Shown in pieces: positions 6,290-7,052 of a DNA stretch of 64,000 nucleotides. The DNA is taken from assembly GCA_947570135.1 (NCBI GenBank), contig CANOTP010000003.1, forward strand, positions 152,197-216,196, written 5' to 3'. Position 1 is the stretch's first letter, and every line of letters begins with the position of its first letter. Under the pieces are notes generated by a model. The model was not told the origin of the DNA, did not search any database, and saw only the letters and a list, made by a program, of their open reading frames with translations. The stretch comes from an uncultured Candidatus Melainabacteria bacterium. GTDB lineage: Bacteria; Cyanobacteriota; Vampirovibrionia; Gastranaerophilales; Gastranaerophilaceae. The position numbers were made by a program, and so were the translations under genes.

Positions 6290-7052
6290 ATGAAAAACAA
6301 ATTACAATTAACATTGCGGGGGGGGTAGCCTTTTCTCGTTAGTAGGACAAGGGTTTAGCCTGTCGGCATTTACCTTAGCTGAGGTATTAATTACCCTCGG
6401 AATTATCGGGGTTGTTGCGGCGATTACTATCCCATCGCTTATCCAAAATAACAAAGCTGCGCGTTTACGCAGTCAATTTTTAAAATCTTATTCAACTGTT
6501 CAGCAGACGTTTCGGCAAATGGAATCCGATGATGTATCTTTAGATCCTGCAACTTATCCTAGAGCAACATATTATAAGACTTTTTCACAATATGTAAAAG
6601 TTGCCGTTGATTGTGGTACTTGGAGTTCTGGTGATGCAAAAAATAAACCTCCTGTTTGTTTTAATTTCAAATATGTAGACAATAATTTGACTATTGGAGC
6701 TACATATAAAACATTAGATGGCGGTGGGTTTGATGATCGGATTTTTGATGATGGGCAACTTGTCTTAATGGACGGGACAAATCTTATGTTCGAAAATCAA
6801 ACAGCTAATAGGATATTTGTATCGGTAGATTTGAACGGATTCAAAAATCCACCAAATAGAGTGGGTTATGATTTATTCACATTTCAATTTTTAGACGGAG
6901 AACTTCGTACAATGGGCAGTAAAGGAACAGCTTACAGTGTTGAAACTTATTGTAATCCTAATGTGCGTAACCAATACAATGGCATAGCTTGTGCTCATAA
7001 AGCGAAAAACGATACCGAATATTTCAAGTGGGTTGTGAAAAATATTAAGTAA
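6290..7052 (+). CDS. Prepilin-like protein, out of frame at a G8 tract (phase OFF)
   Basis: A perfect AGGAGG (6277-6282) precedes the ATG at 6290. The frame reads MKNKLQLTLRGG and stops at a TAG (6326) right after a run of eight G. From the tract onward the next frame is open and encodes SLFSLVGQGFSLSA, then the type IV prepilin signature [14 protein letters not shown], a basic segment (KAARLRSQFLKSY) and a globular domain with FDDGQLVLMD and D-L-N-G-x-x-N-P-P-N-R-x-G. No start codon lies between the tract and the signature in that frame. Seven or ten G would join the two parts into about 253 residues. It is a close paralogue of the gene at 34145. Confidence 0.8.
6318..6325 (+). repeat. Poly-G tract (G8) in prepilin leader
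   Basis: Eight consecutive G, starting in codon 10 of the leader and followed directly by TAG. Such runs are rare in this AT-rich sequence. It is the point where the leader frame and the prepilin frame part; loss of one G or gain of two would fuse them. Confidence 0.9.

Follow-up and report, generated by a model that had tools for sequence, protein, structure and literature searches.

A poly-G tract at a fixed place in the leaders of dozens of prepilin-like genes of gut Melainabacteria, a candidate slippage switch

Results

The 64-kb stretch of DNA analysed here (the window) belongs to the ~1.9 Mb genome of an uncultured Candidatus Melainabacteria bacterium (genome G000) and harbors a prepilin-like gene, locus 1, in which a tract of eight G (poly-G tract) separates a short leader from the body of the gene. 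The first-pass annotation had described a Shine-Dalgarno sequence, an ATG, a ten-residue leader, G8 and an immediate TAG, as well as an open prepilin frame without an alternative start before FTLAEV, and reading of the sequence bore out both the layout and the open frame. From the tract onward, the prepilin frame meets no stop before the TAA at 7050-7052, no ATG, GTG or TTG was found in this frame between the tract and FTLAE (F at 6369), and the next in-frame ATG, at 6519, lies within the mature protein. The window as a whole contains seven overlapping G7 matches compared to 1.15 expected, with none of 100 shuffles reaching as many, and this excess of poly-G is not due to chance. The only other long G runs of the window occupy the tract position of two more prepilin genes (loci 2 and 3, Table 1), the first of which begins 25 bp 3′ of dapB.

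Locus 1 is one of ~37 such poly-G modules in this genome, which was read as searched or sampled stretches. A query with the prepilin N-terminus returned 120 matches at E values up to 10, in keeping with a count of more than 100 prepilin-like genes, and 37 of the 114 matches that were tabulated carried the module. These genes share a ribosome-binding site, an ATG, about ten codons, a G8 or G9 tract (G8 being the dominant length), wrong-frame stops and the FTLAE helix, and the DNA of the module is similar among the paralogues, e.g., ATGAAAAAGCAGACTATAGTTAGAATTTC-G8-TAACTTTTTAAGCTCC. About two thirds of the modules start no more than 100 bp after the end of another open reading frame (ORF) on the same strand. 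The offset is one base short in most modules of the TAAC type; it runs the opposite way in loci 1 and 2, where a TAG follows the tract directly. In several loci (L047, L075, L302, L303 and L305) palindromic repeats of the GATTCCGTGTC..CACGGAATGAC type are inserted between tract and helix; these are apparently read through and recall the Rickettsia palindromic elements.

Table 1. Features of the three poly-G loci and of the genes flanking locus 1 (positions in the window)
Feature	Position	Strand	Remarks
Locus 1, Shine-Dalgarno AGGAGG	6277..6282	+	Overlaps the stop codon of the upstream ORF (6276-6278); sequence reading
Locus 1, leader, 28 nt	6290..6317	+	ATG at 6290, ten codons to the tract; sequence reading
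Locus 1, G8 tract	6318..6325	+	In-frame TAG directly 3′, at 6326-6328
Locus 1, tract-to-helix segment	6326..6368	+	Stop-free in the prepilin frame; ends with the Ala at -1
Locus 1, prepilin-like body, 227 amino acids	6369..7052	+	Intact, one frame off the ATG; weak GspG/PilA N-terminal match (NCBIfam)
Upstream ORF, 236 amino acids	5568..6278	+	Kept in 39/40 genomes of the genus; ends 11 bp before locus 1; no match in Pfam and NCBIfam searches
ATP synthase beta subunit (atpD), downstream gene	7123..8532	+	Named from its sequence
Locus 2, anatomy as locus 1	34145..34877	+	ATG 34145, G9 34175-34183, TAG 34184-34186, helix from 34227
Locus 3, TAAC-type module	63754..64000	+	ATG 63754, G8 63783-63790, helix from 63819; continues beyond the window

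Reading frames were counted in 180 modules from 40 genomes, with the start codon picked by its Shine-Dalgarno sequence and with Glu5 fixed by the search pattern. Between tract and helix, the prepilin frame contained a stop in a single module, compared to 150 and 145 modules for the other two frames. Bodies of at least 150 amino acids followed in 170 of the modules, most exceptions being cut by the end of a stretch, and leader lengths within a genome differed mostly by multiples of three. The genes are therefore built as contingency genes are, with both sides of the tract kept coding and the body intact when out of frame, and their tracts are slippage-type homopolymers by the cut-off of G7 or more in a translated region (PMC6321876). 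Seven pairs of related bodies, both members of each being out of frame, gave ratios of nonsynonymous to synonymous substitution rates (dN/dS) of ~0.04-0.22, and the comparison of locus 1 with its leaderless orthologue in genome G209 gave a dN of 0.13 and a dS of 1.1-1.6. This purifying selection on bodies that are out of frame indicates that they are not dead genes, and that the protein is made at least sometimes, or was until very recently. Where the tract was interrupted, decayed or shortened bodies were found in three of seven cases, a small sample; interrupted tracts would be expected to slip less.

The modal tract length is a feature of the individual genome. Of the 81 modules of the sister species G066 and G180, almost all carry G10 and are one base short, genomes with G11-G13 are mostly offset the opposite way, in the same direction as loci 1 and 2, and the tracts of G145, whose modules are most often in frame, span G10-G13 and all three frames. 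Only 32 of the 180 modules were in frame, fewer than random, and in 113 of 114 one-base-short modules the initiating frame runs into a stop soon after the tract. Length differs between closely similar modules: G11 and G10 in two modules of G047 with identical flanks, G10 and G11 in near-identical modules of SIG30, and G8 and G9 in near-identical or sibling modules at contig ends of G000. In G070, assembly gaps lie inside 16 of the 20 listed tracts. Four other long ORFs of G000 contain G8 or G9 runs that are in frame, and so base calling is an unlikely cause of the out-of-frame state of the modules.

The modules also lie almost exclusively on one presumed replication strand. A positive GC skew was seen on the plus strands of the contigs in 18 of 20 sampled stretches of G000, and these strands were taken as the leading strand; on this assignment the modules divide 36:1 between leading and lagging strand and the leaderless prepilins 27:50 (Fisher P 3e-11, indicative only, as are the other P values, because modules that share a genome are not independent observations). 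All 18 modules in the sampled stretches of G059, G145 and G042 agree with the local skew, and with all longer flanks considered and the gene removed, the corresponding ratios were 85:19 and 20:23. This strand dependence is easier to explain by a process acting on DNA than by one acting on RNA, though a gene-position effect could contribute to it, as many modules follow genes in operon-like order. The leaderless prepilins of G000 (e.g., L048-L074), which favour the presumed lagging strand, often have a promoter-like sequence and an ATG directly 5′ of the helix. Nearly all large contigs of this genome share the same plus-strand skew sign, which is unexpected for two replication arms unless the contigs were oriented.

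Leaders and bodies appear to be separable units. Between sister species, bodies of 84-94% identity are preceded by different leaders, the offset staying the same, which indicates that leaders and bodies were exchanged. The breaks of several contigs of G000 fall precisely on poly-G leaders, where the contigs overlap by 55 bases (the ends of C1, C2 and C3, the starts of C5 and C15, and the end of C15; L017, L020, L023, L035, L044 and L045), and C15, a 6.8 kb contig with a MutS-family gene, looks bounded by direct leader repeats. The order of the contigs, C2-C15-C5, is suggestive of recombination between leaders, though it could not be distinguished from ordinary repeat breaks.

The proteins are best described as prepilin-like. 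The predicted leader has a median length of 22 amino acids and a net charge of +3, and thus the combination of a hydrophilic, positive leader and a hydrophobic helix is present; Glu5 provides no independent test of prepilin identity, as it was part of the search pattern. Residue -1 was Ala in 109 cases and Gly in 90, a Pfam search returned no match, and a search of G000 for the prepilin peptidase domain Peptidase_A24 (PF01478) gave no match, though the domain was found in 12 of 14 controls. The pairing of Gly at -1 with a prepilin peptidase that characterizes type IV prepilins was accordingly not found in this genome, and since Ala is common at -1 and the peptidase search was negative, we do not call these proteins type IV pilins. 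The lack of a Peptidase_A24 match stands beside more than 100 prepilin-like genes in 1.9 Mb. Compared to type IV prepilins and pseudopilins (PMC4471445), the proteins have in common the positive leader and the FTLAE hydrophobic helix with Glu5, and differ in having Ala as often as Gly at -1 and in the missing peptidase match. The label rests on the N-terminus and makes no claim that the products are cleaved or assembled as pilins.

Comparable modules were found in 81 of 182 good genomes of the order Gastranaerophilales, and a general pattern found them in 82 of 192 genomes, with a reversed control almost without matches. Within the genus they are patchy, with few or none in most species tested. 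A scan of all bacteria and archaea with one genome per species, which was not a census, gave at least 80 records, and among the matches listed, the informatively named records were almost all Gastranaerophilales or Melainabacteria. One Verrucomicrobiia contig (L156) fits the leader pattern in frame and is probably unrelated.

Two candidate sources of the modules or of their variation were considered and set aside. A reverse-transcriptase origin was rejected, since the sole RVT_1 gene of G000 (contig C7, L324 1252-3439, 364 amino acids) has no visible link to the prepilins; it lies in a phage-like setting and adjoins repeat-like ORFs that resemble the template and variable repeats of a diversity-generating retroelement. 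Loss of mismatch repair as the cause of slippage was rejected as well, two MutS_V matches being present in the genome.

Discussion

We favour, with moderate confidence, the reading that the poly-G tract is a replication-slippage switch which is mostly OFF. The usual tract length would leave the body one frame off the start codon, such that translation would end a few codons on, and a length changed by slippage would join leader and body in one frame. The consensus of a population would then report the commonest length at each locus, and where this length is one step from in-frame, only a minority of cells would have the gene ON. Since there are dozens of these genes, varying small subsets of the surface proteins would be expressed in a population. 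Slippage combined with consensus lengths would explain the uniform lengths of the assemblies together with the sibling differences in G047, SIG30 and G145 and the gaps of G070. The first-pass annotation had suggested ON/OFF switching of a surface filament subunit, and this suggestion is strengthened by a frame-setting poly-G in a surface-type leader, by its retention in dozens of genes on which purifying selection acts and by the length differences between sibling modules; length change within a strain, switching of expression and filament-forming products we infer from these sequence patterns.

Several observations weigh against a slippage switch. The in-frame share lies below one third (P ~2e-6 if the modules were independent), and a single offset is found in 49 of 51 modules of G066 and in 28 of 30 of G180. 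Orthologous tracts of two species are equal in length, though only few such pairs were available, whereas the tracts of Campylobacter spread more and drift nearer to a neutral ON fraction (PMC6321876). The first-pass annotation named absence of the tract from all orthologues as a refutation of its reading, and for locus 1 this holds in part: the close orthologue in G209 has neither tract nor leader and starts directly at the helix, though another gene of G000 and its G209 relative both keep the G8 leader.

The uniformity of length and offset makes programmed recoding a serious rival, albeit one that we consider unlikely. Here the DNA length would be fixed, and protein would be made at a low, constant level because ribosomes shift frame, or transcription slips, on the G run; the outcome would possibly be a family-wide recoding, with dozens of surface genes per genome one base off and read through modular leading-strand leaders on which either the RNA polymerase or the ribosome slips. 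The near-constant length and one-base-short offset of G066, G180 and most TAAC modules of G000 agree with this, as do the maintenance of the offset across leaders that differ in length by multiples of three and in bodies with swapped leaders, the early stop in the initiating frame and the purifying selection on out-of-frame bodies. As for programmed -1 frameshifting, a G7 heptamer is present, but no excess of RNA structure that could stimulate it was detected 3′ of the tract (mean z ~0), and the offset, constant in G066 and G180, differs between lineages, being mostly opposite in the G11-G13 genomes and most often in frame in G145; locus 1 itself would need a shift opposite to that of the one-base-short modules. 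Moreover, the run keeps its length in every codon phase, a constancy that ribosomal slippage would not require, restriction to the leading strand is unexpected, and transcriptional slippage has been reported mainly on A/T runs (PMC3711429), which also counts against recoding.

The remaining explanations are considerably weaker. That the tracts are truly in frame and the genes ordinary, with the offset produced by assembly or sequencing error, is improbable: consensus lengths of G runs from metagenomes can be wrong, contigs do end at tracts and the gaps of G070 do lie inside them, but error would have to consist of overcalls in G13 genomes and undercalls in G8-G10 genomes, the two independently built sister-species assemblies CAG:439 and BRZ_EH both show G10, and G runs elsewhere in G000 are called in frame. 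A frameshift frozen in dead or decaying genes would account for the out-of-frame state of most copies and for the few truncated bodies (L014, L304 and L308), yet this reading is very hard to reconcile with the dN/dS values, the near-complete bodies and the avoidance of stops in the prepilin frame only. It is just as doubtful that the tract serves mainly as an RNA target, for instance of a C-rich small RNA, with the frame being secondary; a common G run near the start codon of dozens of mRNAs would suit such a role, for which RepG and the tlpB G-repeat of Helicobacter pylori offer a precedent (PMC8295292), but the single open frame 3′ of the tract would be left unexplained (a small RNA was not sought). 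Least probable of all is translation of the body from an internal start after the tract: the leader ORF ends near the body and re-initiation is conceivable, but an ATG, GTG or TTG in the prepilin frame lies between tract and helix in only 15 of 180 modules, and the avoidance of stops in this segment would lack an explanation.

Most of what is known of poly-G phase variation concerns pathogens, Campylobacter and Neisseria among them, and our literature search found no paper on a poly-G gate in paralogous surface genes of these gut bacteria. If the slippage switch is real, such a gate, positioned identically in dozens of paralogues throughout a family of uncultured bacteria of the cyanobacterial phylum, would make the surfaces of animal gut bacteria diverse on a large scale and in a way not yet described. 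The uniform out-of-frame setting further makes a general question testable, namely whether a homopolymer frameshift is a DNA switch or a recoding signal, and standard annotation would label poly-G-gated genes as broken or miss their starts.

Phase-variable surface genes of Neisseria (opa and pilC) carry repeats in the leader-coding region. The modules described here resemble them in having a repeat at the start of a surface-type gene, several copies per genome and an early stop in the wrong frame, and differ in protein family, in repeat context and in number, at ~37-60 modules per genome. With the phasome of Campylobacter (PMC6321876) they share G runs of at least 7 that lie on the coding strand within the genes of an AT-rich genome, the presence of tens of such runs in each genome and a frame set by tract length; in contrast, the tracts described here, which are candidates for switching, occupy one fixed place in one gene family and lie almost only on the leading strand, vary less in length within a genome and are mostly out of frame. 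These last two differences keep fixed recoding a live alternative. The -1 frameshifting or transcriptional slippage of dnaX and insertion sequence (IS) elements (PMC3711429) likewise involves a fixed out-of-frame layout, a slippery homopolymer and a nearby stop, but here the homopolymer is poly-G rather than A/T, no stimulatory structure was found and the offset is inconstant across lineages.
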